Origin: Pseudocercospora fijiensis CIRAD86
Taxonomy: Eukaryota; Ascomycota; Dothideomycetes; Mycosphaerellales; Mycosphaerellaceae
Assembly: GCF_000340215.1 (NCBI RefSeq)
Contig: NW_006921552.1
Coordinates: 202,124-266,123 of the forward strand
Length of the DNA: 64,000 nt
Reading direction: 5' to 3'
Both the position numbers and the translations under genes were made by a program. Each line of letters starts with the position of its first letter. Within the stretch, counting starts at the first letter, position 1. Under the pieces are notes generated by a model that made no database searches, had not been told where the DNA came from, and was given only the letters and a program-made list of their open reading frames with translations. Shown one piece after another: positions 14,840 to 58,816 of this stretch.

Positions 14840-15036
14840 TATAAGAAGGGTTATGTTAGCAGGTAGATAGGGTGGTAGTAGGTACAGGTAGTATTCGATA
14901 AGGATCTAGGAGGAGAGGGAGGAAGGTAGGAGAGTTAGCCTAACGCTAAGCGCTAAGCCCTGCCTAAGGCACTAAGACCCTAGCTTTACTCGGCCTAATT
15001 ATATACTAATCACGTATAGCCTCTTTAGCTCTAATA
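14840..15036 (-). repeat. Element A 3' LTR (197 bp)
   Basis: Equal in length to the 5' LTR and nearly identical to it. Begins TATAAGAAGGG and ends CTCTAATA on the plus strand. Differences from 21,793-21,989 are confined to CA/TA and TG/TA changes. Confidence 0.92.
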
Positions 15037-15195
15037 CACGCTTCCCTTCTAAAGGCCGCGCCCCCGTAGCCTGCCTATATTCTACGACCTCTATTGCCGC
15101 TAACTTAGCAAGTCTAATAAGCTGCTTAGCCCGCGCTAAATTAAACACTTAACTACCTAATTATATAACTATATCAAACCTCACCTTCTAATACA

Positions 15196-15735
15196 ATGTC
15201 TAACTCTAACTGCGCTATCCTTGTATATAATAAAGTGAAGGGATATAAAGCTATAAGAATTAAGGACTATCGACTAATTATAATACGAGCGCGTCTTCCC
15301 TACTGTAATAGGTAGACGTACGAGGTATTGTAGCACTACCTCCGTTCTAAGTAATATCGTATCGAGTTCTTTGCGTCTACTCTTAAAAGACCTAGCAATG
15401 TCCGCTTCCGAGGGTTGTCCGTTCCGAGGGTTGTTCTTATTATTACGAGGGCTATTATTTACTATCGTGGTTTTACTAGCCCTAATGAGTTAGGTTTAGT
15501 AGCCTTTAAGTGTTAACCAATTATCTCTTTTTAAAAAACTTAGTTCTTCTAGTTTCTATAGGTAAAGGCTATTGTAAGTATAGTAGTAGAGGTTCGCCTC
15601 GCTTAAAGGGTTAGATAGATCGAGGAGTAACCTATTGTCCGTAAGATCGACCCCGGCTAGCTTAGCTCTATAGTTTTGCCCTTAGTTAGTTAGTCTATTA
15701 GTCTACTCAATCTTTTAAGCGGCTTAAGGTTTTGA
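15196..15735 (+). pseudogene. Antisense accessory ORF of element A
   Basis: Plus-strand frame from ATG 15,196 to a TGA near 15,733, inside element A but opposite to gag-pol. The first ~95 codons carry only three stops, all TAG/TAA at Trp/Gln-like positions, starting MSNSNCAILVYNK and including LKRPSNVRFRGLSVPRVV. Beyond about codon 105 RIP-type stops become dense, so the real end may be near 15,500. The truncated copy of A keeps the same ATG context near 57,789 but carries indels soon after. No family was recognised. It converges on the end of pol. It could be a captured gene, a regulatory antisense ORF, or chance openness. Confidence 0.4.
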
Positions 15736-16224
15736 CTTAGCCTTAAAGTTTGATTAAAGTTTTAATCAAAGGTGCCTTAGAGTTTTAATATAGGTAAGGT
15801 TAACAATAGCAAGTAATATTAACAATAGCGACGCTAGTCGTCTTAGTGCTAACTTTACCTTCTTCTAATTTCCTTCTTTAACTAATAACAACTCGGTAAC
15901 ACCGTTACTAATATAGCGGTGTCCTTCCTTTCCTAAACATTAATACACTCCGTAATACTATTACTAATATAGCCTCGCCGGCCGCGCCGTCCTTGCCGAT
16001 TGCCTAGGCCTCGAGGCCTCGATAGAATAAAGGAACAAGAGGGGGACCTAAGTGCTAGGAGAAGGCCTTACAGGGCGCATTAGTAAAGAGGTAGAGCCCT
16101 TAAAAGAGCGTACGATTGGTTGACGCGTCGTAGCGCGCTTATTGACACTCGGTACGCGTTTACTATAGTAGTATAGTCCTATTGTCTCTTGTTGCTAACA
16201 ATTGCTTACAGCTAATTAGTTAGC

Positions 16225-16249
16225 TAATAGCACCCCGGGGGTAGCATTA
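16225..16249 (-). repeat. 25-bp near-palindrome, element A copy
   Basis: On the minus (sense) strand, arms TAATGCTACCCC and GGGGTGCTATTA. It lies 23 bases beyond the probable pol stop (16,272-16,274) and before the convergent antisense ORF. The same 25-bp motif recurs in element B and in the truncated A copy. Confidence 0.85.
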
Positions 16250-16271
16250 ATCCTAGGCCTTAATAGTAACA

Positions 16272-19200
16272 TTATAAGCTTTTAGTCTTCTTCTTGTTCT
16301 TTATACTAGTCTAATACTTATCTAACAACTTAGTTATGTCTTTAAAAGAGTCTTTAGCTTCCTACGAGTCCTATTTAGGTGAATAGCCTTACTATCTTAG
16401 TAGGTACTCCTTCTTGCCTTGCCTAGTACGATGCTATAGGATACGTTCTATAGACTATAGCTCCTTACTATCCGCTAGTATGTCTTCGTGTTCTATAGGG
16501 GCTTTATCCCCTCCGCGTAGGTAGTACGGCTTAAGGAGGGATACATAGAAGGTATTATAGATAGTGTAATAAGGTAGGAGCTACAACTAATAGGCCTATA
16601 TGCCCTTAGCCTCTCGAATGCGGAATAGGCCAATGTATCTTAGTGCGAGCTTGGGCCTTGTTTTGCTATTAGGTAATAGGTGTTTACGGATACGGAGGTT
16701 CTTTATACTAAGCATAACTATATCGCCTTGCTTAAAGGTTATTAGTATATAGCGCTTATCGTAGTAGGTCTTTTAGTACTCTTAAGCCTTTATTAACTTC
16801 TCGGCTATCTTAGTATAGATTTCCCGTATCTTCTAAACCCTCTTAATAGCCGCTAGTGTTTCGGGTACTTAACGCGCTTCCCTTTCCTTACGCTCGGCCT
16901 CGAGCGATAGTAGGTCTTATAGCATAGCAGCATTCTAGCCTATTATAGCTATATAGGGCGAGATCTTAGTTAATAAATGTATACTGTTATTATACACGAA
17001 TTCTGTAGGCTATAGGAGGTTAACCTAATTCTCGGGGTTCTTATTAATATAGCTGCGTAGGTACTGCTATAGGGTAGCATTCTGCCTCTCTATTTAACCG
17101 TTAGTCTATAGATAGAAGGCTATTAACAGCCGATGCTTTAGTCTTAGCTATAAGCAAATCTCGCTCTAATAGTAAGATATAAATATCGAGCCCCTATCGG
17201 AGACTATCCCCTTAGGGGTTCCCTAATAGGTACAGAAGATGTTACTCTATAGCGCCTCTACTATATCAATAGTAGTCTAGTCTTTCCGCGCTAGGATATA
17301 TCGAGCGCCTTTAGTGAATCGATCTACTACAATAAGGATAGCATTATACACGTCCTTGCTACCCCTACGTCTAGTAGGTAGAAGGCCTATAATAAAGTCT
17401 ATTGTTAGCTTAGCAAATAGCGTCTTTAGAATAGGGAGCGAGGACAACTCGCCGAACGGCAAGTGCTTCGGTGCTTTAACTCGCTAGTATACTGTATAGG
17501 TCTGTATATACTCCTTTATATGCCGCTTACTATTTAGCTAGTAGTATATACGCGATAGTAACTCGTGCGACCTCTCTGTACTATAGTAACTAGCGAGCTC
17601 ACTATTATAGTGCCTCTTTAAAAGCTCTTATCTAATCGATTGTTTAGCGGGGATATAGTATCTGCCTTTAAACTTTAAGTAACCTTTATCGTCGATCGAC
17701 TAATTGTTGTTACTCTTGCTAGATCGAGTCGCCCGTCTACTTACAAGCTTATTAATGCGCTCGACAGCAAAGGCGTCCCTCTACTAAGCACGTAATAGCT
17801 TATCTATAAACGATTAACTATCCCTATTTGCAAGGTTATTTAATAGTACCCGTACTATCGAACGAGGTACGCATTATATACATCTAATAGCACTAGTAGC
17901 CGGAACTACTACAACCTCTTCTATAGTACTGTCGCTATATAGGCTATTACTATAGATAGCAATATCTTTAATCGAGTTATTATAGCTCGAGCGATCTACG
18001 TCCTTTCTAACGCGTACTAGAAGAACGACAACTCCGCTATAGTATTTGTTGCCGCCGCGGGGTCCGGAAGTCCGCTTATCCTACGCTTGCTTATTAACAA
18101 TACGGGCTATAGCAATCTTATACTATAGGGTTGGAAACAAAGAATTAATGTATTAGGTCTCGCTATCGTAATTAGGTCGCCTCGATAGGCTATCGGTAGG
18201 GTTACTTACGCCTAGCCGGTATAATATATTAAAATCAAACCCGGCGAGGTAGACGGCCTATCTAGCCTGTCGACCTATAACCCTAGTAACCTTAGTAATG
18301 CTACGGAGGTTGTTATAGTCTATATAGACCTAAATTGTATACTAAGCACTATTAAGATAGTAGCGCTAATGCTTAAAGGCTTCGATAATAGCTAGGAGCT
18401 CTTGCTTGTAGGTCTCGTAGCGACGTTCTATATCGATTATCTTTCGTAAAAAGAAGGCAATCGGGTACTAATAGGTGTCGTTAGCCTATTGTAATATAAT
18501 AGCTAATACAGCGAACTGTAAAGCGTTAGTCTCAATTCGGATCTGCTTGCTTAGTACAAAATAGCGCAATAAGGGGACTTTAGTAAAGCGTTGCTTTAGA
18601 CCGTTAAAAGCGGCTTATGTTTTGTTAGTCTACCTGAACTCTCTAGAAGGGTTTGCCTTGGTTTTAGTAAGCTTAGTTAGTAGTATTACATGCCTCGAAT
18701 AACCCTTAATAAACCGACGGTAGAAGTTAGTAAAACCTAGGAACGATTAAAGCTCCTTAATAGACGTAGGAACAGGCTATTTAGTAATTGTTTTAATCCG
18801 ATTAGGATTAGCCTTAACACTATTAGTTAATACGATAAAACTAAGGAAGGCTACCTCCTTAGTAGCGAAGGTGCATTTAGAAGGCTTGTAATATAGTCTA
18901 TAGGCTCGTAGGCGGTCGAGGACCTTACGGACTATAGCCTAGTACTCCGCAATGTTAGGTAAGTGTATATAAACTAAGATGTTATCTAGGTAAACTATAT
19001 AGAGGTGATCTAATAGGCCTAATAGGGCCCGATTGATATAGGATTAGAATATTACAGGGGCGTTCGCTAGCCTAAATAGCATAACTAAATACTCGAAATA
19101 GCTATAACGAGTGCGAAAGGCTATCTTCTATTCGTCGCCCTTGCGGATACGGATACGATAGTACGCATCCTTAATGTCTAGTATAGTATAGTAGTAGGTA

Positions 19201-21600
19201 CTAGAAAGGCGGTCGAGGGTCTTATTAATAAGCGGGAGTAGACAGCGGTCTTTAATAGTAATAGCGTTAAGCCCTCTATAATCAATATATAAACGTAGGC
19301 CGCTATCCTTTTTTAGCACGAACAGGATAGGTGCACTAGCAGGGCTGTTACTATATCGGATTCGACTATTAGCTAGGTTTTCCTCTAGGTACTTACGTAG
19401 TATAGCAAGCTCTCGTTTACTAAGGTTGTAGAGGGGTCTAAAAGGAACCTCCTTGCCCTCTATAATATTAATCTTATAATCCGTCTCTTTGAATATAGGC
19501 AATGTCGATACTAGGTAGTGTTTGAATACATTAATATAGGTTTCTCGAATAGGTACTAGTATACGAGAGAGCTAATTAGGGTCTATGCTATTAGGGGGTA
19601 CAGGTTTATCGTTATCTCTACCGAGAAGATTAGCTATCGGATTAGCTAAGGCAGGTATTAGGTTGCTAATAAACAGGACCCTAATATCGTTAGGGCACTC
19701 GCTAATATTAATGTATTTAATGTCCTCTTTCCTAGCGATTCTAAATCGCTACTTCTAGAGGCCTAGGTCTATAGCTATAGCGTAGTACTTAAGAACAGGG
19801 TTGCTAATAACAATAGTAGCTCCCCTATGTAGGTTGTCTATATCTACTACGTAAGTAGTAAAGTCTAGTAGGCGTTTATTTCCGAGGTCGTCCTTTAGAG
19901 CTATAGGAATATAGTAGGCTCTATAGGTTAAGTGCCGAGCGTTATTAAACTAAGTAAGGGTTAGCAGGTTAGTCTTCGGTAGTTGTCGAAGGTCTAATTG
20001 CTTAGCTAGGCGATAGCTAATAAGGGCACTAACTGAATTTCCTAGATCTAGTATAACCTTAGTTTAATAGGTAGTGCCCTTCGTATCCTATACAAGGCAG
20101 GAGCGTATTATAGCTAGTACAATGTCGATAGTCTTACGCCGCACGAGGCTAATAGTTAGTACGGCGCTTACTCTTTTTTCGAAGGTTAGCCTATAGGGGT
20201 AGCGTTAGCCGCTAAGAGGTGCTTTCGGTGTTTAGCGGAAGCACGGTTAATTCGGGCCTAGTCCTTAGGTTTGTCGCATTAGCCTAGTAGATAGCTAGTG
20301 CTGTTACAATTAAAGCACTTTAACCCGGTTAGTAGACTGCCGTAGCTGTTGTTACTATTATTAGCCGAGCGGTTAGCATTATAGGGATACGAGCCCCTTC
20401 CCCGGCCCCTATCGCGGCCTCCTCTATATAGCCGCCGGCTACGGCCTCTTCTACGATCGTTACTGTTCCTATTGTTAGTATTATTGTCCTAATAGGAACC
20501 TTAGTTTCCTCCGCGGCTACTACGGTTACTACGGTTAGTACTAGCTAGTCGGATCCTTAATTCTAGTCGTTACTAAAGCTAAACAGCTCGTTTAGCTGTT
20601 TCTACTTTAACTATAAATTGAATACGTGTTAGGTTAGCCTATTCGAATATACGACGGCGGTCCAATTCGAGAATAAGCTCCTACCTAAGCTTAGGGCGTA
20701 TTTCCGAGATCTATATAGAATTAGTCTTAGGCGGAAGGTCGTCTTTAAGGGTTTTCAAATAGGCTTCAAATAAGCGAGCCGATTAATTAGTCTTCTATTT
20801 AGCTCGAAGATACAGGTCCTAAGCATGTTGTTGCCTTAGTATAGGGTTTCTAAGGGTGTCTAGTATAATAGTTTTGTAGGTTTGCTACTAAATAGCAGTT
20901 TGGTTATTAAGGGAGTCGAAATAGTTATCCTATATGCGCTTTAGGTCGCTATTAATGTACTGCATAGCGTATACGACTAAGGAATAGTCGTCTAGTAGCG
21001 CTCTTAGTACATTACGCTAGTTAAGTTTATAGTTACGAATGTGGTCGTTATACTACTTTCGACTAGAGCTATTAAACACGGTATAGTCCTTAAGTTTAGC
21101 ATCCTTCTTTTAGATAGGTAGTAAAGAAGGTCCCGCTATTAGTTTTGCTATCGGGGCTTCCTAAAGGCGACGGAGCTCGAGGAGATTATCCTTTAGCTAT
21201 TGTTCTTAACGTAGGGTAGTAAGCCTGTTTTGAGTAGCTTCTTGAAGTCTCCCTAATAGTTGAGGGCTAAAGGCTAGTTAGCTATATCGACGGTTGACAA
21301 TATTGCTAAGAATATCGTTAACAGGCAACTCTAGGTCGTTACCTAGAATTACAGGTTCTTCGGCAGGCCTAGCAGTAGGCTCCTTAGTAGGAGGCACTTT
21401 AGCAGGTGCTCTAGTAGGCACTTTAGTAGGCCCTTTAGCAGGCACTGTGCTACTAGTATTGTCGTTGCTAGCGCTGCTAGCGGCGCCGCGATTATTGTTT
21501 CGTAATAAGCCGGCTATTGTAATAAGGGGTAGTACTAATAATGTATTATTAGCCCCTAAGATACGGATGTAGCGGAGTTAGTAGATATCGGTCTAGTATA
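16272..21600 (-). pseudogene. Element A gag-pol with C-terminal chromodomain, RIP-inactivated
   Basis: Retrotransposon polyprotein on the minus strand. Gag (about 21,600-20,270) has a Pro/Thr/Ala linker (VPAKGPTKVPTRAP) and a CFNC...C zinc knuckle near 20,330-20,280 whose His reads Tyr. The RT has an open run at 19,502-19,128 with [11 protein letters not shown]. The catalytic YxDD reads YLDN near 18,990-18,975, an Asp-to-Asn change of RIP type. Integrase core is at 17,462-17,277 (LTIDFIIGLLP, VVDRFTKGARYI). A chromodomain near the C-terminus (16,480-16,300: KKEYLLRWWGYSPK with stop read as Trp, then DSWEAKDSF) identifies a chromovirus, a lineage that can target heterochromatin. Stops are TAG/TAA. 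The start of gag and the gag/pol boundary were not resolved. Confidence 0.9.
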
Positions 21601-21792
21601 CTTAACTTAGTATAATAGGCCGTATAGAAGGCCTTGCTTAATAATTAGTACGGTTGTTTCGATAGAATAGTACGTATAGATCCCGTTCTTCGGGCGCAAT
21701 ATAGTTAGATTAGTCTTGTTCGTAGCTATACCGCTAAAAGCTTGAAATAAGAACTATCTAGCTACTGCCCTTAAAGGGTAGATCGAATACTG

Positions 21793-21989
21793 TATAAGAA
21801 GGGTTATATTAGCAGGTAGATAGGGTAGTAGTAGGTATAGGTAGTATTCGATAAGGATCTAGGAGGAGAGGGAGGAAGGTAGGAGAGTTAGCCTAACGCT
21901 AAGCGCTAAGCCCTGCCTAAGGTACTAAGACCCTAGCTTCACTCGGCCTAATCACATGCCAATCACGTATAGCCTCTTTAGCTCTAACA
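21793..21989 (-). repeat. Element A 5' LTR (197 bp)
   Basis: Pairs with 14,840-15,036. In sense orientation it starts TGTTAGAGC, and gag-pol lies downstream on the minus strand. No tRNA primer site was identified next to it. Confidence 0.92.
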
Positions 21990-21994
21990 ACTGT
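21990..21994. other. Target site duplication (ACTGT), right
   Basis: Matches 14,835-14,839. Confidence 0.9.
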
Positions 21995-23527
21995 TTCGAC
22001 TGTCGTCTCGTTATTACCCTTCCTAGTATAGCGCCTAGTATATATATAATGTCGGTCGGTATGTTTTAAGGTTTCGTACGGTAAGGTAAGGACTTAGGAG
22101 TAGTAGATGTATACTAGTAGCTATAGAGAAACACCCTTTCTTTTATAGTATCGTATCGTTAGGAATAGCTAGGCAGTAAATAGCTAGCTACCTTTTTTTT
22201 TTGTTTCCTAGCTACCTAACTACTAGATTTTTTTTCCTAGCTACCCTAGCTAGCCTAACTACTAGAATTTCTTTCCTAGCTACCCTAACTACCTGAATTT
22301 TGCCTTCTATACGGCGGCTCTCTCCTACTAACGGAACCGAGCTACTATACCTAACGAATCTAAGCTCGTTTTTAGTCTTAATCTATCCTCTTTCGGTATA
22401 AGACACTCGATAAGCAAATGCTTAGGCCGAGTCTAACTACGAAACCTAAGACTAACTAATAGCTCTATTAACTAATCCTAATCCTCGAACTCCTTCCGCT
22501 TCTTAGTAAAGACCTTAAAGAGCGCTCGAGCTTCTTCGGGTACCTACGGAGTAGTCGAGATAAAGCCGTATCGCTAAAATAGGTAATCCTTCGGAGGCTT
22601 ATATAGAGATTTAGAGAATTCTAACGCTAACCTATCCTACTAGTAGCTTAGATTCCGGATACAAGCCCTCTCTGCCTTAGTAAAGATTTTATATAGTAGT
22701 AGTACTCTGCCTTCGAGAAACGCTTTCTATTTAACTGTTAGTATCTGCCGGCTACGAACGCCGGCTATATATGCCGAGCATAGAATAATTACCTGTACCC
22801 CTTCCTCCTATAGTAACACTTCTACCGTCCCTAGATACCTAGCCCCGATCGCATTAATCGTAAGCTACTTTGCCTTTATAGACGTAAAGGCTTCGCTCTA
22901 ATACTAATAAAGAAACTTCTACTCTATATCGAGGATATAAAGACGACTAGTCTCGATTCTAATCCTTGCTAGCTTTTCGTAGTAGCTTTAACTATGATTT
23001 TCTAGATTAATAGGACTTATGCCTTAGCCCTTTACTAGTATCTCGTCTCTTTAACTATACTTGATCTACTCCTAGCGCTTATCGTCTATAGCGTTAGGCC
23101 CTAAGACTGCACCTATTACTAGATCGACGTATAGTATCTCCTCGCTTTTTTTAGTTCCTTTATTCGTAGTATTAAGCTCTGTCGCGGTATCCTAAACTCT
23201 AGTATTGTTGTTCTCGGCTATCTAAATATCTCCGTTACTATCGGTCGTATCGATAGAGGTAGCGGCTATAGGTCTAAATGCTATTAGTTAACGTATTAAA
23301 GAAAAATATACCGGCTATAGCTGCTAGCTACGGCCGCTAGCTAGATTGACTTACGCTACTAGAACTTTACGCTCGAAAACTAGCCGTAATTCTTTCCTCC
23401 TCTTAGCCTTCTCTTAGGTTGTCTTCTTATTCTAACCTTTACTTTTTTCTATAGGCGCTAGCTATCGATAGAATGCCTTATTCCGCGCCTTTCTTCTCTT
23501 ATCCTTAGCTCTTTTATCCTTATCTAT
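21995..23527. other. Continuation of the interrupted hAT block, unclassified
   Basis: RIP-altered DNA between elements A and B. The first ~100 bases on the minus strand read through toward the hAT frame if element A and one target copy are removed. Near 22,190-22,290 there is a local repeat of CCTAGCTACC/TAACTAC with T-runs. TAGCCGGC-like motifs lie near 22,745-22,780 and 23,305-23,340, as in 9.8-14.2 kb, which supports one original transposon spanning both sides of A. Minus-strand coding traces near 23,140-22,900 were not identified. Confidence 0.45.
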
Positions 23528-23807
23528 TATTGGCTAGTAACCGGCCCTACACACCTAGGGGGAGTTTTGAGCCTATATAAGAGGCCTCCTTCTACATTGT
23601 AGATAGGGCACCAACCTCGTATAGTACATTGTTTATGTTACACTTCTATAATGCCTATATTGCAGGGCTCTAGTTATTAGCCTAAGCAACCGTCTTGTTA
23701 TCCTATTATGCTAAACATAGCTGCCTATATTGCTATAGGTTATGTTACCCTCGGTAGCCTATACTATTACTGCTAGTAGTAGTAGTAGTTTTAGTTTCCG
23801 TCCTTTA
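23528..23807 (+). repeat. Element B 5' LTR (280 bp)
   Basis: Begins TATTGGCTAG and ends GTCCTTTA; ends TG...CA are inferred before RIP. Nearly identical to 35,577-35,856. Contains a TATA box (listed separately). Confidence 0.92.
23571..23590 (+). promoter_or_regulatory. TATA box in element B LTR
   Basis: GCCTATATAAGAGGCCTCC-type core, conserved in the 3' LTR near 35,620-35,639. Position within the LTR fits the retrotransposon promoter. Inferred from sequence only. Confidence 0.6.
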
Positions 23808-24458
23808 TTAGAGCCGAAGGTAGGGCTATCTCTTTATATCTAATAGGTTCGGGTATATTAAAGGTGGTCTCTAGGCACGAATAGCTATAACTAAAGCGAG
23901 GGTACGACAAGAGCCTACGATACGGACGATACCGAAGTATCTTAAGGGGCTATTACGACAAGCAGAGAAACCTCTTAACGAAGGCATCGCTTTAACCCCG
24001 AAAAGCTACAAACCCTTAGGACTATTATAGCTTAGGGCCTAGTCTATAGCTATAGCTAGCTTCTAAGGACTCGGCTCCGGGTCGAAGACCTATTTAGCAC
24101 CGCTTACTCGAGATAAGCCCCGCCTAAGGAGGAGATAGACTAATTACCTATCGGCCTTGCTTAGTTTGCTAAGACTATCAATTAATAGCAAATACGGATT
24201 GTAGGTCGGATAGCCGGGGAGTCCCCTATTAATCGGGTAGGGCGTTCCTAGATTCGTAGCCTCGCTTAGACAGTGCTTAGCCTTCTACTAGAAAAAGAAG
24301 GCTACCGCCCCCCCTGCCTAGCTAAAGGAGGTACGAGCTAGTTTCTAGGATCTAGATATAAATAGAGATTGTAGTCTCTCCCTCCGAGCGGCTTTTGTCT
24401 AAAATCTACTAAACTTAGCTCCTAGAGGTAGTTAGGCGACCCCTAGGAGGCTAAATCC
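23808..24458 (+). other. Element B leader between LTR and gag
   Basis: About 650 bases with no supported gene. One frame (phase ending at TAA 24,459) has only TAG/TAA stops, but they are dense (about 11% of codons near its end), so it is not convincing as coding. No tRNA primer site was clear after the LTR. Confidence 0.4.
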
Positions 24459-24483
24459 TAATACTACCCCGGGGGTAATACTA
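24459..24483 (+). repeat. 25-bp near-palindrome, B copy 1 (before gag)
   Basis: Arms TAATACTACCCC and GGGGTAATACTA. Read in the gag frame (phase of 24,461) the codons after TAA/ATA are ATA-CTA-CCC-CGG-GGG, which is ATG-Leu-Pro-Arg-Gly if the ATA was ATG before RIP. Confidence 0.85.
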
Positions 24484-27400
24484 GGAGAAACAGCCTAATA
24501 TACTACTCTCTCGTATAGCAACATTATAACAAACCAAATAGACCAAAGTTACTAAAAACACATTTATATAGCATTCTATTTCAACTTTATATAGCATTCT
24601 ATTTCAACTATTTTAACTATTTTATAACAATCGAATAAGCTCTAGCTCTAGCGAAAACGAATATCGAGAATTAGCGGAATCCTCTAAATCCGAAACCGCC
24701 CCTAATCCTATTAACGAAAAAATTAGGCGGCGACTAGTCAATATAAGTAAGCCTCCTACGCCTTCTACGCCTAAGGCGCTCTACAATATTATTATAAAGA
24801 TAATAGAGAAGCAAACTAAACTTCTCCGTTAAAGCAAGCGTCGCCCGCTAGAACTAGGGAGTACTACAAACCCCTTATTCGAAGGGTGGAACGCTATAGT
24901 ACATATTAAGCGCTTTAAGGAAGGCTTAGTTAATTACGAGCTCGATAGAGAATCCGACTAGTACAAGATTCGGTCCTTTACGAGGACTACCTCCTCTAAG
25001 CTTTACCGAACCCTTAAAACCCTAGTTAGCTACCTAGAAAAGGACGACAAGTCTAATACTAACTAGGAGACCTTTAAGGTAGCCTTTATAAGGGAGTATC
25101 GGGAGCGCGATAGCCGTCGCATTAAAGGCAGTCGTACGTAGCTCGAGACCCTCTGCTTAGTAAGGCGCACTAAGGATAACGACCTAAAGGGGTATGTCCG
25201 CGAGTTTGTCGAGTTAGCGGACGGCATCGAATAGAGTAACCTCGAAAACTCTTAGAGAACGAGGCTGCTCCTCTAGGGATTGCCGTAGCCTATAGCTTAG
25301 CGTATCTTCCGTCGCTATAAGCTTAGCGAGTCCGATCCTAAGAGTTTTAGGAAATATAAAGAGGTCCTAGTGTGTGTTAAGGCCGATATTAATAGCATAG
25401 CCGATACGAGGAAGTTTATCTACGGCGAAGACCGGAATAACCTAGCGTAGGTTAGGAAAGAGGCCTTAGGAAATAAGGGACCTAAGTTCCTTCCTAAATC
25501 GCAAAGTGGTCCTAAGACCGTAACTCCCACTATTACTAAGCACTCTTAAGACGTTGCGGACTTAGCTGAATCCCTAGCCTAACTAAACCTAAATGTGAAA
25601 GCATTATAGCAAGTTAGGGAGGTTATTAATGCTACTATACTAGGCGATGTACCGCTAGTCTACTAGGTTTCAGATCCTAACTACCCTAAAGCCCCTTTAG
25701 TAGATGTCTACGCTATACGGAAGATCCATTCTAACTTAGATAGCAAGTGCTAGATATATAGCGGGTTTAAACATGTCTAATCGTCCTACCCTATCTAGAA
25801 AGAGCTTCTTAAAAGGAAGCTTATTATACAAGTAAATAGCCGATTCTATTATATAGATACCGGCGACAAGATTGATTTCGAATAGGATCGGAGAGCCCCG
25901 AAGCTACCTTAGCTAAAGACCCTTCTAGAAAAGAAGTATAGCGGCAAGATCGAGTTTAAGGACACTAGGAATAGTACCCTCGCCGCTATTGCTAAACGTA
26001 AAACTTAGAAGGTTAGGGCAAAGCAAGTTAAGGAGCGGAGCAGTAATAGTACTACTAAGCCTGTTAAGGTTAACTTTGTTTCTTAGGACCCGGACGCAGT
26101 TACTAATGTTTACGCGGTTACTAAGAACAGTATAGATGTCTACGCTGCTATACGGTCTTAGACCTAGTCCTAAAACAAGGGCAAGAGCCCTTAGAACCCT
26201 ACTCGCCCTAGTACGGCAGCCCCTACTAGGGTACTAAAGAACAAGGCGGCCGATAAGGCTAAGCAATAGCGAGAGTCAACCGCTAAAACTAAGACTCTCT
26301 AGACAGCTACAGACTGTACTGCCCGATCTAGCGCCGTACCTAGCACCCTACCTGTAGAAAGCCTAGTCGTCCTAGAGACTCTAGAGGTCGATATAGAGGA
26401 TGTTGCTACTAACATTAGTAGTACCCTAGGTCTAGCTAACCTACCGGCCTATAAGCGAAAGTCATCCGATCTAAAGAGCTTTCGCTTTAATAGGTATATA
26501 AAAAAGTATAGTACTAGCCTAGCTAACTCCTTAGATACAAAGGCAAACGCTCTCTTCTAGGCTTTATAGTTCCTAGACCTTAAGTCTAATGTGTCTATAG
26601 GAGAGCTGCTAGCGTACGGTTTGCCTACTAACCTGTTCTAGAGCCGAATCCCTAACGATGCTACCTTTATAAAAGACCTCGCTACCCTCCGAAGGAAACA
26701 GGGACGAGAAGACTATATCGACGTCTCTTCCCTATAGTTCCTTCCTAAATTTTTAGGTACCTAAGAGTTAGTAGAAGGCGAATCGGTAACCTACGAGAAC
26801 TAAGAGACTATCGATAATACTAACGAAGAGGGAGTTAAGGAGATAGGCCGAGGGGATAGTAATAATCCCGACCCTACTCTAGTTTTAGTCTCTATTAAGG
26901 CTGTCCGGTTTACTAGCTAACAAATCGGTCGAGTAGGACCTCCTCGACCTAAGGAACTTTATTCTATCCCTAATAATGTAGACCTTTCTATAGTTACCCG
27001 TTCCTTCGCCGTCGTTCCCGCTATCTATATTTAAGTTACTATCGGGAGCTATAGTTAACAGATGCTAGCAATGCTTGATAATAGTTCGGAGTTACTTATT
27101 ATAAGTAAGCGTTAGGCTAAACAACTTAGGCTGCTAATAAATAGAGACATTTCCCTAGGCATATAGGGAGTAAATAGGGAGGTTGCGCTAGTAGGTGCTT
27201 ACTATAATGTTATAGTAGACGCCTTCGGCATATGCTTTTCCTTTACCTTCTAGATTGCCGCCGACCTAAATACGCTAATTATTCTAGGTCGACTATAGTC
27301 TCGCATAACTCGAGGTGTCTAGCGCAACTGCGACGATAGTTCCTAGGAGGGAACTATCGCTAACTAGAAGGGCAACCGAGTCGTATTTACTAGTTATATC

Positions 27401-27736
27401 GGCAATACTAGCTGCAAATCCTACGAGGATATCCTTGCTGCTTCTAGACGGTCTTCGGGAAACGCTACGGCGCGGTTGTAAGACCGGCAATCTACGCTAT
27501 AAGTTAGTATAGCTTTAATAGGTTATTTCTAGAAGTGCGCCGCTCCGTACGATAAGGCAAGTTTCTAGGTTCTATACTAAGAAGACGAATGCTCGAAGCG
27601 ATAGCGAGTATAACCTAACGACTACCTACACCTGCTATACGAGTTAAGGTAATAATGCTATCTTATACGTCGTCGCCGGAGGCATTACTACCGGATGCGG
27701 GTCTACTCGAACTAACCAATCAAAGCGCGAGTCTAA
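24461..27736 (+). pseudogene. Element B gag-protease, RIP-inactivated
   Basis: Capsid-like and retropepsin-like region in frame 2. Gag sequence is clear from about 24,641 (SSSSENEYRELAE...), with typical fungal Gypsy features such as FEGWNAIVHIKRFKEG near 24,885 and a helical core. A protease-like site occurs near 27,060-27,110 (MLAMLDNSSELLIISKR, Asp-containing) followed by LNTLIILGRLW near 27,270 (the ILGRPWL-type motif). The frame stays limited to TAG/TAA stops up to the TAA at 27,734-27,736, which overlaps the ATG of the pol frame. The true start is uncertain: either near the palindrome (24,461) or closer to 24,620. No zinc knuckle was recognised. Confidence 0.8.
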
Positions 27737-27758
27737 TGCTACCCCGGGGGTATTATTA
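27734..27758 (+). repeat. 25-bp near-palindrome, B copy 2 (gag-protease/pol boundary)
   Basis: Arms TAATGCTACCCC and GGGGTATTATTA. TAA (27,734-27,736) is in the gag-protease frame and ATG (27,736-27,738) is in the pol frame, giving an overlapping TAATG. The pol frame then reads Met-Leu-Pro-Arg-Gly. Confidence 0.88.
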
Positions 27759-30700
27759 CGAATCTAACGTTTTCGCCGGCGTTATAAATTAGGACTACTA
27801 GTTGCATACCTATCGACTTAAGGAGACTTCTAAGGAAGTTTACGCGCTGTTTTGTTACGCTAATCTCTAGGCCTAACGATAAAGAGAGAGAGCTCGGATT
27901 CGATAATCGATTAGTGTCTATACCCTATATAAGAGGGTAGCCGATAAGATTAAGCCCGTAAAGGGCAGTGTACACATTACCGATAGGTCTAATCCTAGCG
28001 GGAATCCTAACTAGCGATAAAAGTGCCTTAATTAGGAGGCGACACTACTACCTAGGGATAGTCCGTACGATTAGAAGTACATTACTAAAAAGTTTTCTAC
28101 TATCCCTAGGGGGTTAAGGCTAATAGAGGAGAGGCTTGCGAAAATCAAACCTAGTATCGAGCTTTCGGATCGTAAACTGGATTTGCTATACGAGCTTCTA
28201 TACAATCGCGAGGCCGTGTTAGTATATGACTTTACTTACCTAGGTAGAATAAATCCGGAGGTTGCCCCTCCGTAGAAGATCCGAACGATCGAGTATAAGC
28301 CTTAGGCCTACCTAGGTTTTAAGCTAAACCTAAGCCTACGAGGCGTAGTTAAGGACATAATACGACAGCGTATAAAGGCTAGCACCTTGGAACCTTCCTA
28401 TGCCTCGTATCGCAATCTATACTTCCTAGTTTAAAAGAAGACAGCTCCTAGGGAACTAAAGAAGTACCGTCTAATTAACGCTATATAAAAGTTTAACGCA
28501 GTTACGATTAGAGATGCTAACCTGCCTCCGGAGACTAATAGGTTCTCGGAAGCCTTTGCTAACTGTATTGTAGCCTTACTAGTTGACGTTTTCTCGGGCT
28601 ACGACTAGATTCCTCTTTACCCTAATAGCCGCGACCTTACTAGTTTCGAGACACCTCTTAGGCTATATAGGCAAACTACCCTTCCCTAAGGGGCAACTAA
28701 CTCCGTAGCCTAGTTCGTTCGCATTATAAACCAAGTCCTCGCGGCCTATATCTCCTATATAGCGATGCCTTTCCTAGACGATATCGGCATTAAGGGCCCT
28801 AAAACTAGGTACGATAATAAAGAAGTAGAGCCTAGCATCCGTAGGTTCTTTCTCGAACATATCTAGAACCTCGATAGCGTCCTCTACGACCTAGAGCGAG
28901 CTAATCTAACGGTGTATAGGGAGAAGCTTTAGCTCCTATACAAACGAATAAACATTGTCGGGTTTGTAACTAATAAGTACGGCCGCTATCCTAATAATGT
29001 ACGGGTCCTAAAGATAGTGTCCTAGCCGGATCCTACCTGTTAGAAGGATGTCCGAACCTAGCTTAGAGTAGTCTCCTACTTCCGTATCTAGGTCGAGAAC
29101 TTTATATTAGTATATAAGCCCTTATACGCCTTGCTTAAGAAGGATGCTAAGTTCGAATAGACACCCGTTTACTAAGCGGCTAAGGACAAGGTAACTAAGG
29201 CACTCGTTAGCGTACCTACACTTACGTCTATTAACTACTTAGAGGGTACGGGTTTAATAATTGTTGCTATCGACTCGAGCGGGGAAGGCTATAGCGAGAT
29301 ACTAATGCAGTGTAACCGTAAGGAGCTATCCTTGCGTTATCCTATTAGGTACGACTCCGGACTATAGAAGCCAATCGAGGCCCGATACGATACTAGCAAG
29401 CGAGAATGCCTTAGAGTCTATAAGGCTCTAAAGAAGTTCCGACCGTAGCTCTTTAGTATATTCTTTCGCTTAGAAATCGATGCTTAGACGCTAGTCTATT
29501 AACTTAACCGTATAGCCTCCGACCTACTAAACTCTACGATAGCTCGGTAGGTTGCCTAGATCTATTTGTTTAATTTCGATGTCTTCTACGTTCCTAGCAA
29601 GAAGCATACTAGACCGGATAGCCTTTCTAGAAGGCCCGCTATAGAAGAGGACGTCGCCGAAATAATAGAAGAAGAGGATGTCGATACGGTAATTAACCGC
29701 ACTTTCTTCGCTGCCTTCTATATTAATGCTATACTAGCGATTACTAGGCCTACTACCGACGACTAACCTAGCGACTAACCTAGTAACTAGCCCGACGGGA
29801 GCCCTACTACTAACGATAACGACTAGGCTAAAGCTAAGGCGGATAAACTAGAGAGGGATAATATCCTTAATAGGGTCTACTCCGACGACTCCTATTATAT
29901 CGCCTACTTCCTAACCTATACGAAGAAAGCGCCTAGCCTATTAAAGAGTTAATACCGTCGGGTTATTCGCTATTCTCGACGATTCCTAGTTAAAGATCGA
30001 ATCCTTTAGCGATAAGCGATAGTTAATGTACCTCTCTAGCGTGTTATTAACGACCTAGTAGCCCGATAAGAGATCCTTCGTTCCGTTTACGATAAGCTCG
30101 GCTACCGGGCGGCGGAGGGCACCTTCGATGTCCTTCGTCGGCGCTACTAGTAGGACGGCGTATAGGCTAATGTCTCCCGCTACTATAAGAGCTATCCTAA
30201 GTGCAATTTTAGGAATAGCTATCGACGTCCGGGAGAGCTGCGTATTCCTACTACCTAATTAGTCGGAGAGCGATAGTATAGCGATAGGGTCTATCTTAGT
30301 CGCAATAACAGCTTGTATATTATTCGAGAAGGTCTTTCTCGATAGCTAGAGGCCTATTATTTCTATAAGGGCTGCAGCGCTATTAATACTCGTAATATAG
30401 CTACCTTCCTATTTAAAGATCTGTTTTGCCGCTAGGGAACACCTTACGAGATTATCTTAGACAACGCTACGAACAATATAGCTAAAGAAGTTTAAGTACT
30501 ACTTGTTTCGTATAGGGCGAAAAACGTTCGCATCTCCCCGTACTATCCCTAGTCGAATGCTATTGTTAAACGTAGCTATCGGTCTTTAATTGATGCCCTA
30601 TCTAAGATAACTAATAGAGGGGACAGGTCGGTTCCTATCTCTACCCGGGTCCTAGCCCTTCTCTAGGCGGATCGAACTACTATTATCGATACTACTAGAC

Positions 30701-31482
30701 TTACGCCGGTAGAGCTTATAATTAGGAGGGACGCCGTTCTTCCTATTAAGTTGTCCTATCGCACGTATAGCGTTTACGATTAGGGGTCTGTTCGTACTAG
30801 GGCAGATCTTCTTACCCTATAGGCTAAGGCTCTTAAGGATATAACTACGACTTCTTAGGAGGGTCTTGCTCGATAACGGCGCCTTCGTAAAGAGGCTAAG
30901 CAGTATTTCGATAACCGTAATGCTATTAATTGGGAGCCTCTAAAGGTTAGCGATATAGTCCTCCTATACCGGTCCGAGTTAGAATATAGTTACTCTTATA
31001 AGCTAGCCTTTAAATAGAAAGGGCCTTATAGAGTGTAGGAGGTCCTTTACGATAGTTCTACGTACCGACTTTAGGAACTTAATAGTGCTACTTTGAAGTA
31101 CTCGTACCCTCGGGCTAACCTAAAGAAGATCGTCGAATTAAGAGAGCCTGCCCGCCCTCCCCCGACCGAGGAGGAAGTTAATGCCTCTATAGACCCTCTA
31201 CCGACCTTAGATACTTATCGAGAGGAGGATCCTACCGCGATTATAGATCCTATTCTACCTAACAACTATACGCATCCCTAGATACGTCTTAGTAAGCTAT
31301 TAGGAATAACTTATAAACAAAGGGAGGGTTATATACGTATTAATTGCGCGTAGAGCATTTCCGATGTTAATTCCGATAGTAAACTAGACTTCTAGCTATC
31401 TAACTCTAACTCCGAGGGGGAGCTCGACTAGTCTAGCGACGAAGACCGCCTAGAATTATAGCTAGATCCCGAGACTAAATAA
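27736..31482 (+). pseudogene. Element B RT-RNaseH-integrase, RIP-inactivated
   Basis: Frame 1, 1,248 codons from ATG 27,736 to TAA 31,480-31,482. Reverse transcriptase lies near 28,400-28,980 with GATNSVAWFVRI (stop read as Trp) and FLDDIGIKGP at 28,771 in the YxDD position. RNase H follows to about 29,640 (IIVAIDSSGEGYSE near 29,265; PSKKHTRPDSLSR near 29,595). Integrase begins near 30,060 with a zinc-binding region whose His residues now read Tyr (KLGYRAAEG; YPKC) and a core with Asp in YSDRVYL and IILDNATNN (30,457). A conserved post-core tail ends near 31,110 (YSYPRANLKKIVELREP). Stops are TAG/TAA. No chromodomain was seen. Confidence 0.9.
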
Positions 31483-31725
31483 TTGCTTGTCTTTCCCTGC
31501 CTCTACTACGTTGTTTTCCTTACCTTCTCCGCGCTATTAATACAGTACCGCCCTATAGCTTTAGTCCTTACTACTTGTTCCTACGGATGTTAATGCTTAT
31601 AGTTGTTGCCCTCTTTTGCTTTTACTTTGTCTATTGTGTTGCTCTTTTGCCTTCGAGATATTGCTATAACTTCATTCCTTTGCTCTTGTTTTTCCTTAGA
31701 TAGAACTATACGAGGCGTGTTTTCC

Positions 31726-31750
31726 TAATAACACCCTAGGGGTAGCATTA
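31726..31750 (-). repeat. 25-bp near-palindrome, B copy 3 (after pol, inverted)
   Basis: On the plus strand arms TAATAACACCCT and GGGGTAGCATTA, matching the motif in reverse orientation. Its TAA (31,726-31,728) is in the pol frame, 244 bases beyond the first pol TAA. Confidence 0.8.
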
Positions 31751-32177
31751 GGAAAATGGCCGAACCTAACCCTACTACCCTTCTAGGACTACTTCCCTCT
31801 AGATTCCTAGACTCTAGCAACCTTCCTTAAGTAATAACGACAACAAGATACTCTGCTAGAGACTGTTCCTGCCCTAATTAGCACTAGTTACGTAGGACAC
31901 TAAGAAAGGGAGGTTCCCTATCCCTCTCCCTTCCTAGCTCTTAGATAGATATAACAACCTAGGCCTATAGCCTCTAAGAATAGGGACCTTAGGCTGTTAA
32001 GCTTAGTGTTTAGAAGAAGGAAGAAGGTAAACGTATAGACTACCCTTACGTACTTGCTAATGTAAAAGGTAATGCTGCATCTACAAACGGCAGTGCTATA
32101 GGCTAATATACCGACGAATTAGCTACGTTAGGCCTAGGCGACTTGCTCCTCGTTACCGAGCATCTCTAGAGAAAAGC

Positions 32178-32202
32178 TAATACTACCCCGGGGGTGCTAT
32201 TA
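32178..32202 (+). repeat. 25-bp near-palindrome, B copy 4 (before ORF3)
   Basis: Arms TAATACTACCCC and GGGGTGCTATTA. About 420 bases before the first ATG of ORF3. Confidence 0.85.
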
Positions 32203-32622
32203 GTCCCGCTAGCTTTACTACTATAGATTTCTGCTAGAGACTCGGACTAACTAGTTACATTTCGAGTACGCGAGAGTCTACGATAGCTAGAGTTTAATAA
32301 AGGCGCGTATTCGCTACTAGCAATTAGCTAGATCGATTGTCAAACTTTAGCCTACCCTAATAATAAAGAAGTCTCGCATATAGCTTCACTTTTATATATA
32401 GCCGTCATCCGTTTGCTTTACTAGCGCGGAATATACAGACTACGTTACCTTCGTACTATATTTAAAGCGGGCTTCCTAAGCTCCTTCTTCTACTCGATTA
32501 CTAACTAACTCGCTACCGCCTAACTACCCCCCCCCTCTTCTATCTAAACCCTTCGATTATTATTGTTAAGTAGCGAATACACTTGTAGACTCGTTTCTAA
32601 CCTACTTCTGCTTCGGTCGACT

Positions 32623-35400
32623 ATGTCTTCCGGCGCCTCGAATCCGCTAGGCGCTAGTAGCAGTAGCGACCTACCTGCCCCTATTAACCTAAGCCTAGCC
32701 GCCCTAGTCCCGATCGAAGCCCTATCCGATAGCGCCTTAGCTGCTGCAACTAGCCTCGAGTACTGCTTCTAGATCGTTACCGCCCTTAAAGATCCTTAAG
32801 AGAAGATCTAGAACGCTCGTACCCTACTACGCGTTATCGATAGGAATATTAAGAAGGCTACTGTCTTAGTTGCGTACGGTATAAACAACTTGCGTTAGTC
32901 TATCGGTAAGCGTATCTTCAAGCGCGAGGTCCTTAACGATATAGATATTAAACAAGCCTTTCCTATCGTCTATAGCCTCGAGACTACTAGTACCTAGATT
33001 CGTTTGCGCTTTAAGACCCTCGACTAGGCCTTCGAATATTAGGGAGGACTAAGTAGTCTTCCTAAGAGCCTTATTAACTTCGCCTACGGTAGATAAGAGC
33101 GTACTAAGTAGGTCTCTTCGTTCGTTAACAAATATAAGGTCCGTCGTTAAGGCGCCGAGCATCTTTCCCATACTATAATCTATCGTATGTCTACCGCTAG
33201 TAAGAAGGTAGGTAAGCAGTTACTTAACCTATCCTTTACGCTTAACGACTTTACGACAGCCTACTAGAAGAAGCACTACGATGCGATTGTCTAGGTCGAC
33301 CTTAACGTATAGACAACTAAGGATCTACTAAAGGAGAAGGGCTATTATATTAATAGTATAGGCTTTATTATTAAAGGTTAAGAGGCTCCTATCGTTGATG
33401 TCCTTAAACGCAAGGCCCTTCGCCTAGAAACTAAGGCCGATACGGCTGCTAGTCTTGCGCTCGCTATAGAGATGCAGGCTAAAGATCGTCGCTCGACCCG
33501 TAACCGCAAGGTCCCTTAAGAAGTTTAAGACGAGCGCGCTAAGGCCGAAGCAGCGCGTAAGAAGGCATTGTATACTCGCTAGGCCCTCCGTAAGGCTACT
33601 AAGAAATATAGCGCTCCTTCTAGTACCGACTATAGTACTAACTATAGTACTAACTATAGTAACTCGGATGTTAATATGCTAGATATACTACTAGAAGATG
33701 TCTCCTCCGAAGGCTCCTTTAGCAAGCGTAGAAATAGAGGCCTCTCGCCGATCCTGTTAACTAAGAACATTTATAGTTCTTATAAGGGCGACTCTATCGC
33801 GTACCTTATTACCGACATCGATATAGTTCCTAAAGCCGCAATAGGCGAAGCTCCTACCGCCCTCTCTATCTATTAATAGCTCGACGACCTTAGCAAGCTA
33901 GGAGAAGAGCCGTTCTCTATATGTGCTAACTATATTAAGAAGGCCGCTAAGGTCTGTAGTCTCTATGCTAGTGCTAAGGCGAGTGTCCTTGTCGGTCGCC
34001 TATTAAAGATTAGTCGCGAGGTTCCTAATTAAGACGCCTTCGCTACCCTTAAGGCTAATTAGGCCTATACTAACTAGTTTCCTAGACGCCCTATTACCGC
34101 CCCGACATCTCTAGGACTCTACGCGTTCAACCCTACTAGTACTATTACTCGCGCCCTTACGCTAACGGATCGCTAGAGCAAGTTCGTTACCGGCATTCTT
34201 AGCTAAGGCACCTCCTTCGATCGCTTTCGCTAGACTAGTAATACTATCTTCCCTTAAGTCTTTAGTTAGTTATAAGAGCCTCGTAGAGTATATCTTCCTT
34301 TCCTTATCGACCTAATATAGGAAGAGTTTAAGATGTACCTTTAGTATATACGTAACATGCCTAAGTCTAAGCAAGAAGGCCGCAATGCCCTTTAAACTTA
34401 TAGTATAAGCAACTAAATCGTCCGCTAGTACCCTGCCCTATAGCTCTTAGCTATCGCCCTTCGACCTAATTACGTATACGAGCTTATCTCCGTTCCTAAG
34501 CCTACTAAGTTCTTTAAGGTTAGCGGTACTTACGAAAACTGTCCTTCTAAGGAGTCTACTCGTCTCGGACAAGATATAGTTAAGCTCGCAGCTAGCGAGG
34601 GTGCTAGTTACCTACGCATTAAGGTCTGTCTTATATCTAAGGATAAGACTAGCTACTCTACTATTGTCGAAGGCATGTATTAGCCCGAGGTCTTTACGAA
34701 CTAGGTTAAGAAGCTTAAGGCTCGTAGCCTAGTCCTACTAAGCAAGATCGGCAAGCTTACTAATAAGCACCTTACCGACGACGACCTCGACTATATGTTC
34801 GATAGTTAGCCTAATAGTAAGGGGCGCAAAGCGGAGTGGATCCTTAACCCTCTAAAGGAATGCGAAGTCTCTATTTAGATACTATACCTGCTATATAGTA
34901 ATCTAAAGACTAAGAGCAACCGTATATTAATTGACCTAGGCTACTCTCGCGTTATTAACGGCACTAAGGTTAAGGGTTACGAGAACTTGACAGTCTCTTA
35001 GGTTACTAAAGCGCACCGCAATCTAACCGCCCTCCCGGCCTCTAACTCCTTCGTACTATTCGCTTTCCCTATAGCGATCTTAGTCGAAGGCCTCGGCTAT
35101 ATCTCCGACGCCCTAGTTAGTAGGATTCCTTAGTTAAGTTACGTTATTTAGAACGAAGTTGAATAAATCCTCTAGCTTAATAACGAGGGACTTAAGGAAT
35201 ATCTATACAATTAGGAGAATGCTACGACGGAGAAGGCTGCTAACCTCCTCGTTAATTAAGCTTTCTACGAAGGACAGTACTTCGGTGCTAATAGCTTTAA
35301 CGTATACGGAGGAGATTTCGAGAGCCGACTAGCAGATAAGGTTATTGCTAGTAAGGATTACGGCGCGTTAAAGCAGCAGTAAGTCGGCATAGTAGACTAA
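32623..35400 (+). pseudogene. Element B ORF3, unknown function, RIP-inactivated
   Basis: A frame of about 925 codons between integrase and the 3' LTR, beginning at ATG 32,623 (MSSGASNPLGASSSS) and ending at a TAA at 35,380 or 35,398. Stops inside are TAG/TAA at Trp/Gln-like positions. The N-terminal third is Ser/Ala-rich, then helical. A highly basic stretch lies near 33,480-33,610 (ALRKATKKYS), then an acidic/Ser linker (SDVNMLDILLEDVSSEGSFS), then a long globular-looking part with NRILIDLGYSRVINGTKV near 34,920 and FYEGQYFGANSFNVYGGDF near 35,265. No signal peptide or obvious membrane anchor is visible, so it does not look like an env gene. I recognise no domain. It is far longer than usual accessory ORFs in fungal Gypsy elements. 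Confidence 0.75.
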
Positions 35401-35440
35401 TTGCTTAGGATTGTTTTTGCATATTAATAGATTCTAGGAA

Positions 35441-35465
35441 CAATGCTACCCCGGGGGTGTTATTG
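35441..35465 (+). repeat. 25-bp near-palindrome, B copy 5 (after ORF3)
   Basis: Arms CAATGCTACCCC and GGGGTGTTATTG; the outermost pair is C-G instead of T-A, so the symmetry is kept. It lies 40-60 bases after ORF3 and about 110 bases before the 3' LTR. Confidence 0.85.
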
Positions 35466-35564
35466 CGGAGTCTCTAAAAGATAGCCTTAGCTAAGATGCC
35501 TAAGGTTACTGTATAACTGTTTGTTTTAAGCGCGCAATGTAAAGCGTATCTAGTTAGATACGAA

Positions 35565-35576
35565 GAAAGGGAGGGA
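35565..35576 (+). promoter_or_regulatory. Polypurine tract of element B
   Basis: GAAAGGGAGGGA directly before the 3' LTR; the expected plus-strand priming site of an LTR retrotransposon. Confidence 0.8.
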
Positions 35577-35856
35577 TATTAGCTAGTAACCGGCCCTACA
35601 TACCTAGGGGGAGTTTTAAGCCTATATAAGAGGCCTCCTTCTGCATTATAGATAGGGTACTAACCTCGTATAGCACATTGTTTATATTACACTTCTACAA
35701 TGCCTATGTTGCAGGGCTCTGGTTATTAGCCTAAGCAACCGTCTTGTTATCCTATTATGCTAAACATAGCTGCCTATATTGCTATAGGTTATGTTACCCT
35801 CGGTGGCCTATACTATTACTGCTAGTAGTAGTAGTAGTTTTAGTTTCCGTCCTTTA
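35577..35856 (+). repeat. Element B 3' LTR (280 bp)
   Basis: Same length as the 5' LTR. Begins TATTAGCTAG and ends GTCCTTTA. Confidence 0.92.
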
Positions 35857-36129
35857 CTATCTTATCCTTTCTCTCGCGGTCTCGTACGGAATTCTTCTTC
35901 GTAGAGTACTCCTTTTTAGTCTTGCGCTTTTTAGTTAGACGCTTAGGCAAAACAAACTCGCGGTCTTTAGTTCTATCTTCTATTTAGCGCGCGGCGCGCT
36001 TCTCTCTTACTATTATAAGGGAAAGGGGCGGGGGCGTAGCGTATAGTAGTTGTTGTCGGTATAGATATAGAGGAAGAAGTTGAAAGTATAAGAATATCGC
36101 GAAGCCCTAATTGTTGCCGCCTACGTAAC

Positions 36130-36480
36130 GTTATATAGGTAAGCTTTCGCAACTACGGCAACTACGCCCCGGCAATAGCAACTACGCCCTAGCAACGGCA
36201 ACTACGCCCTAGCAACAGCAACTACGCCCTAGCAACGGTAATAAAGCGTAGTAAATACAACCTAGTAACTATTATAGCCGGCAATCGTAGCCGGCAGTCG
36301 AATAAGAGTGTCCTTATAGCAAAACTACGCCCTAGCAACGGCAACTACGCCCTAGTAACGGCAACTACGCCCTAGCAACGGCAAAAGAGCGTAGTAAATG
36401 TAATAGAGTTACTATTATAGCCGGCAATCGTAGCCGGCAGTCGAATAAGAGTATCCTTATAGTAAAACTAATATAGTCTC
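36130..36480. repeat. Tandem array of ~20-bp CGGCAACTACGCCCTAGCAA units in a higher-order duplication
   Basis: Several units of CGGCAACTACGCCCTAGCAA, plus a duplicated ~100-bp block (about 36,224-36,325 and 36,364-36,470) containing ATAGCCGGCAATCGTAGCCGG. No gene seen here or in the flanking DNA down to 36,720. Confidence 0.75.
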
Positions 36481-36727
36481 TAGTTTAAACTAGGAATCTA
36501 TATAGTTCGAAAAAACTAAACCGGAACTAGGGAGCTAGTTCGCCGCTAAGAAACCAAACTATATACGTTTAGTAGTTCGGAAACCGAACTACTACGGGGT
36601 CTATTTCTAGGTATTAGAAGGTTAGTGTTTTGCTCTAGCCTTGCCTTTTTTTTTTTTTTTGCTTAGTAATTCTATTCTATTGCTTAGTATCCTACTCTTC
36701 TGCTGCTCTTTCTATTTTGTCTAGTCG

Positions 36728-38710: not shown

Positions 38711-38769
38711 CGGTGTCTTAGTATCGTTAGGTTTCGATAGTAGGACGTAACGTAACGATGCTAGTTCAG

Positions 38770-57437: not shown

Positions 57438-57626
57438 TGTAAGAAGGGTTATATTAGTAGGTAGATAGGGTAATAGTAGGTTAGTATAGTATTCGATAGA
57501 GATCTAGAAAGAGAAGGAGGAAGGTAGGCTAGTTAGCCTAACGCTAAGCGCTAAGCCCTACCTAAGGTACTAAGACCCTAGCTTTACTCGAACTAGTTAT
57601 ATACTAATTACGTATATCCTCTAATA
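57438..57626 (-). repeat. LTR of the truncated element A copy
   Basis: Begins TGTAAGAAGGG and ends CTCTAATA; matches the two 197-bp LTRs with small indels. Confidence 0.85.
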
Positions 57627-58791: not shown

Positions 58792-58816
58792 TAATAGTAC
58801 CCTAGGGGTAGTATTA
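58792..58816 (-). repeat. 25-bp near-palindrome, truncated A copy
   Basis: Plus-strand arms TAATAGTACCCT and GGGGTAGTATTA, same length and position relative to pol as 16,225-16,249. Confidence 0.85.

Follow-up and report, generated by a model that had tools for sequence, protein, structure and literature searches.

A 25-bp near-palindrome shared by unrelated LTR retrotransposons of Pseudocercospora fijiensis: a candidate cis-acting site at the DNA level

Why should one and the same short palindrome recur at several points of retrotransposons that have little else in common? Sequence common to unrelated retrotransposons is generally rare, except where a host tRNA or a protein domain imposes it. 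The question is raised by a stretch of 64,000 nucleotides from P. fijiensis CIRAD86 (contig NW_006921552.1, hereafter the window), whose preliminary description reported seven copies of a near-palindrome, each of 25 bp, in two Ty3/Gypsy lineages, here called elements A and B (Table 1). All seven copies are present. Six of them lie within three mismatches of TAATGCTACCCCNGGGGTGCTATTA and the one at 24,459 differs from it by four. Chance origin can be ruled out: 100 shuffles did not give a single match to TAATGCTACCCCNGGGGTGCTATTA, and the genome (73.9 Mb in 30 contigs) holds 1,103 forward and 1,138 reverse matches with up to three mismatches, against none for a control in which the word was read backward. 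The arms are indeed inverted, but the palindrome is imperfect at one triplet, where the GCT of one arm is opposite the GCT of the other. The orientation of the word follows that of the element in six of the seven copies, as had been described, the copy at 31,726 being the inverted one. The reading that we favor, tentatively and with a probability of about 0.4, is that this 25-mer is a palindromic cis-acting site that several unrelated LTR retrotransposons carry and that operates at the DNA level.

Table 1 Features of the window that relate to the 25-mer; the names of the places (A, B1 to B5) are those used in the text
Feature	Positions	Strand	Remarks
Element A, copy 1, chromovirus-like Gypsy	14840..21987	-	LTRs 14840-15034 and 21793-21987, 95% identical
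Element A, copy 2, part aligning with copy 1	57438..59918	-	LTR-like end 57438-57632
Element B, Gypsy by eye, 12-kb	23528..35859	+	LTRs 23528-23810 and 35577-35859, 95% identical
25-mer, place A	16225..16249	-	Element A on - strand; 3' of pol end; exact match
25-mer, place B1	24459..24483	+	Upstream of gag by the map of the preliminary description; 4 mismatches; arms GCT-like/AGC-like
25-mer, place B2	27734..27758	+	ATG at 27736 in the frame coding downstream (pol)
25-mer, place B3	31726..31750	-	Inverted relative to element B; within a longer palindrome TTTTCC..GGAAAA
25-mer, place B4	32178..32202	+	Between pol and ORF3 of the preliminary description
25-mer, place B5	35441..35465	+	5' of the 3' LTR; CAAT..ATTG ends kept
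25-mer, place A, second copy of element A	58792..58816	-	

The carriers belong to more than the two lineages first recognized. Element A matches the Pfam family RVT_1 with an E-value of 5.4e-5, which does not reach the curated cut-off, and its chromodomain was identified by eye. The sole relevant match of element B is RT_RNaseH_2 (E 0.017, which does not reach the cut-off either), and its putative Gypsy status comes from RT-like pieces recognized by eye in the sequence. The ORF3 that had been attributed to element B is made up of pieces without significant Pfam match, and the other copies of this element have no long open piece. The third carrier, which is not visible within the window, is a Ty1/Copia element (element C, represented by L017/L040, L027/L041 and L065). 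Two pieces of L040 match RVT_2 and pass the cut-off (E 3.5e-10 and 5.1e-8). The 25-mer reads NATPGVLL in frame there, with a zinc knuckle on one side and a protease on the other, both recognized by eye. Two putative Ty3/Gypsy lineages are thus a minimum, and one Copia lineage has to be added, so that the families are at least three. Finally, a relative of element A (A', locus L048) aligns with it at 75.7% and carries the whole 25-mer inverted; the pol anchor, which A' shares with A, is 74 nt away. Together with B3, this makes two inverted places out of eight.

When classified by their flanks, the distinct readable copies number 107: 24 at A, 2 at B1, 23 at B2, 14 at B3 (including L066, whose flank is rearranged), 13 at B4, 27 at B5, 3 in C and 1 in A'. 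All 107 are in an LTR retrotransposon context, in a set that was mostly retrieved via the match to the 25-mer itself and is not a census. Three other searches were designed to exclude the known contexts and cover part of the possible contexts and forms. The genome has no place where a purine lies three bases downstream of an exact 25-mer; a version tolerant of repeat-induced point mutation (RIP) and followed by Y and then H has 21 (nine at B2, ten at B5, one in A' and one B1-like); and the RIP-tolerant version with a G directly 5' has three, one each in C, B5 and B2. These 24 places are all in LTR elements and none was found elsewhere by these searches, whose coverage leaves aside the 64 genome places of the perfect AGC/GCT palindrome, at least five of which are A copies. 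The 25-mer does belong to retrotransposons, as first proposed, with no scatter in other DNA among the places searched.

One explanation for a shared word is common descent. The preliminary description had deemed shared ancestry of the site unlikely, since A is a chromovirus and B is not, and the words shared between families agree with this view: the ancestry of the whole elements does not explain the 25-mer. Words of at least 14 bases compare as follows with the expectation from 10 shuffles (A-B, using the window's copies, 2 vs 2.5; A-C 4 vs 2.4; B-C 5 vs 2.4) and the longest of those shared by B and C are the 25-mer itself, over 23 and 19 bases. A residue of homology, or of recombination, between families that once carried a longer common block would fit the mild excess of words of at least 12 bases, which the 25-mer explains only in part (B-C 61 vs 40.2, A-C 43 vs 32.7, A-B 41 vs 35.2), as well as the recurrence of CTAACTAATTAGAG at most 25 nt away from the 25-mer both in A and at B2. 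Nevertheless, given the counts for the longer words and the lack of any relation between the pol of Copia and that of Gypsy at this level, such a residue is highly improbable. The two occurrences of CTAACTAATTAGAG are on opposite sides, at about +26 in the right flank of A and about -22 in the left flank of B2, and the motif resembles a fungal branch point followed by a 3' splice site. Among the words that recur from copy to copy, CTAACTAATTAGA(G) adjoins the 25-mer in A and lies 8 nt 5' of it at B2.

Another family of explanations places the function in the RNA. The word had been located near ORF boundaries, and hairpins separating the ORFs had been suggested. The location is correct for A and B2, but not for element C, where the 25-mer is in frame within gag-pol. 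In element A, transversion columns counted by position modulo 3 (2, 11 and 3 over the last 250 bp) indicate that the pol frame extends to the 25-mer, and no clear coding periodicity was seen in the columns 3' of it. A stop present in at least 90% of the aligned copies is 25 nt 5' of the 25-mer in the window copy, with a spacing that varies among copies. At B2, the ATG carried by the 25-mer is in the frame that is coding downstream (columns 3, 8, 4; 3, 10, 2; 0, 8, 1), and upstream a weak signal is in a different frame (34, 27 and 47 over 1,250 bp). Stop-start reinitiation at UAAUG occurs in SART1 and in victoriviruses, and the likeness is that the RIP-mutated 25-mer begins with TAATG and is found at a frame change at B2; however, the less mutated 25-mer begins with CAATG and the other places have no matching frame relation. 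This reinitiation was rejected as a candidate: the frame relation is possible at B2 only, C reads through and A follows pol.

More generally, an RNA hairpin acting in translation, through reinitiation or frameshifting, or at transcript ends could draw on the B2 arrangement and on the ability of most sense copies to form an 11-bp stem with one mismatch. Yet a single frame runs through the 25-mer in C, no coding signal follows it in A, the frame of its ATG closes within the 25-mer itself at A, B4 and C, and the copies at B3 and in A' are inverted. Moreover, five 25-mers fold no better than their shuffles (z between -0.02 and -1.19), and neither do three of four stretches of 65 nt (z +1.36, -0.47 and -0.60), the element-sense RNA of B3 being the only one to do so (z -3.16). 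An RNA role is therefore unlikely, and the notion of hairpins that separate ORFs is not supported. Since the 25-mer is 5' of pol at B2, in frame in C, 3' of pol in A and inverted at two of the eight places, a single translational role for all places is unlikely as well.

If the word had been inserted into elements that previously lacked it, empty sites and target duplications could be expected. The flanks of B4 separated by a gap of 0-30 have 274 matches in the genome (134 + 140); among the 100 listed, the gap is filled by 25 bp in 99 and by 26 bp in one, and a gap of 0-21 gives no match in the genome. For the flanks of A the same gap of 0-30 gives 581 matches (285 + 296), and the 25-mer was recognized by eye in all of the 100 listed. 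Rather than being absent from most members of these families, the 25-mer is carried, as read by eye, by the matches listed (100 of 274 for B4 and 100 of 581 for A). No clean empty site, for which a gap of about 3 is expected, was found at A. A gap of 0-23 has three matches there (G000:C6:3289670, C9:407197 and C21:294848), with gaps of 10, 11 and 10 instead of the usual 27-29. These exceed the gap expected of an empty site, and the three shortened copies are probably partial deletions of the palindrome. In the printed flanks, searched by eye, no direct repeat surrounds the 25-mer at A, B1, B3, B4, B5 or C. The only case is B2 in L018 (L018:1495-1531), where the 6-bp repeat CGAGTC is present on both sides. 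The tiny nested palindromic insert that had first been suggested is thus possible, but neither a duplication shared by the places nor, at A and B4, a clean empty site speaks for it.

These data bear on the insertion of a miniature DNA transposon (MITE), or of the joined ends of one, by a transposase. The inverted-repeat structure and the CGAGTC repeat in L018 would agree with it, but the other places have no matching direct repeat, A and B4 offer no clean empty site, and the searches made, as far as they reach, gave no copy in single-copy DNA. Half-arms separate from a full 25-mer are also few and imperfect in the fetched loci. A MITE is very unlikely on these grounds, and a DNA transposon was discarded for the same lack of a common duplication, of a clean empty site at A or B4 and, within the searches made, of any copy other than those in LTR elements. 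Alternatively, the 25-mer could be a minute palindromic hitchhiker without function that was copied several times into retrotransposons, for instance when reverse transcription switched from one co-packaged RNA template to another, and whose number then grew along with that of its carriers; the places that survive would be the tolerant ones. It would be at home in either orientation, at five places in B, in LTR elements only, and in linkers, between genes or in frame. It would also explain the near-identity of the word over three families, unpaired positions included, better than a DNA site does: that the GCT/GCT triplets are identical although they do not pair is suggestive of copying rather than of binding sites that evolved separately. 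Another point counted in its favor is an extra TAATGCAG directly 5' of the 25-mer in one copy of element C. Against it stand the missing empty sites at A and B4, the missing duplication common to the places, the lack of copies outside retroelements in the three context-excluding searches and the lack of a known mechanism for a two-ended transfer of 25 bp. Such a hitchhiker is the main alternative to a DNA site and only slightly less probable. The extra TAATGCAG (L065:1480-1530, compared with L017) resembles a partial tandem copy of the left end of the 25-mer, and the frame upstream of it is shifted.

The differences between copies require separating the effects of RIP from the rest. RIP is strong in the window, where CA and TG reach 0.44 of their expected frequency and TA reaches 1.61, and PMC4981457 describes RIP in P. 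fijiensis as biased from CA to TA, with CT to TT in some families. Since 461 genome matches begin with CAAT and several B copies have CAAT..ATTG, the outer T..A of the 25-mer is at least partly a RIP product. The possibility that the word itself is a RIP artefact was rejected: RIP-type transitions account for most differences between copies but not for the sharing of the 25-mer. Beyond these transitions, what distinguishes the 25-mers of A, B and C is mainly the centre base and one base of an arm, and their flanks are unrelated. Most B places and element C have a central G, and A and B3 have a central C; at B2 the centre is G in most copies and C-like in L047, L057 and L064, that is, the spacer is found inverted. 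The arm triplets of 91 of the 100 listed A copies, scored by eye, are GCT-like/GCT-like (a few with one further change), whereas the other nine have rewritten arms within constant flanks, six AGC/GCT and three GCT/AGC-like. Changing GCT into AGC is a reverse complementation of three bases, so that in either arm a multi-base change has made the arms complementary. At B1 the window copy has GCT/AGC-like arms, and L051, a diverged relative, has GCT/GCT. The outer T-A pair of the B3 word has become G-C in two distinct copies (L020 and L028), which keeps the palindromy.

Both the arms and the centre have thus been altered in place, and hairpin template switching is the mechanism that we infer from this pattern. 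Template switching between inverted repeats homogenizes arms and inverts spacers in yeast, according to PMC8604942. The 25-mer resembles the quasi-palindromes treated there in being an imperfect short inverted repeat, with arms that a single multi-base step makes perfect and a centre that flips, but there the mutations concern unrelated single sites and here one word in unrelated elements and thousands of copies. The transversion test for selection on the word had no power and an ascertainment bias (most copies were found via the 25-mer), and the counts at B3 are too small. At B3, where 14 copies make up a less biased set, transversions occupy 4 of 350 cells in the 25-mer, all four from one paired change, vs 2.65% in the flanks; at B4, no more than about 0.5 of the 25 columns would be expected to vary at the flank rate. 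A further and rather doubtful reading is that of a self-complementary sequence of 25 bp, a minimal parasite of transposable elements whose only way to multiply would be to pass from one LTR retrotransposon genome, Gypsy or Copia, to another and whose shape would be held by hairpin template switching. Around B3, in a comparison of window positions 31720-31756 with L020 and L028, the palindrome extends to about 37 bp (TTTTCC..GGAAAA), and another subfamily has CTTCC..GGAAG instead. A C 5' and a G 3' of the 25-mer, which would yield inverted CCAAT boxes, are seen in the window copy of B1, at B3 and B4 and in C, and are absent in A, B5 and L051.

What is observed is one word in unrelated elements, at fixed places, in either orientation and in any reading frame, and, among the places examined, in such elements only. 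A site that is read as DNA accounts for the independence from orientation and frame and for the restriction to elements. The inverted copies at B3 and in A' speak for this cis-acting site, and so do the five B places that surround the units of element B by the map of the preliminary description, the palindromy that was kept upon base change (the G-C pair at B3, the AGC/GCT and GCT/AGC-like arms in unchanged A flanks) and the lack of a clean empty site at A or B4. On the other side, a factor of the host would be expected to bind in the host's own DNA too, and the forms searched gave no site there. The 25-mer would most likely be recognized in double-stranded DNA, and its partner would be a protein of two-fold symmetry, encoded by the host, as had been suggested among other roles, or by the elements; the recognition may take place near the boundaries of transcription units. 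Its first passage between families could have been a short-patch copying during reverse transcription, which is a guess. The gypsy retrovirus of Drosophila offers a precedent, in which several sites of one host protein, Su(Hw), lie in an LTR element and act on DNA. The Su(Hw) sites cluster within a single untranslated region and belong to one family, whereas the 25-mer is at several places of at least three families and its protein is only putative.

A word of 25 bp common to Gypsy and Copia and unseen elsewhere would reveal either a trans-acting factor that several families need or an extremely small mobile sequence of the nucleus, and its numerous copies, frozen by RIP within a single genome, would serve as a natural archive of hairpin template switching. 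Among short palindromic repeats described elsewhere, the bacterial REP and GTAG-tagged palindromes are similar in size (20-40 bp) and in their high copy number (PMC3733652), but the present ones are in a nuclear fungal genome and, as far as examined, in LTR retrotransposons only. The short palindromic repeats of Volvox organelle DNA are regarded as selfish (PMC2670323); here, unlike in those organelles, the repeats are inside nuclear retrotransposons. Within the open-licence literature, the arm letters returned one unrelated paper, and searches by topic brought up no description of the 25-mer. In the main text of the survey of P. fijiensis transposons (PMC3562529), the strings "palindrom" and "hairpin" occur 0 times.

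The window has some other repeats and one region of a different composition. In a repeat pair of another family (9629-9924 and 61889-62189, about 92% identical) the 25-mer was not found. Diverged tandem arrays with units of about 126-150 bp extend over 36150-39190. Positions 47000-57000, an island inside the RIP-mutated DNA, are richer in GC (about 50-56%) and have a normal CA/TG content; the island holds several ORFs, one of them of 614 aa at 47587-49431.
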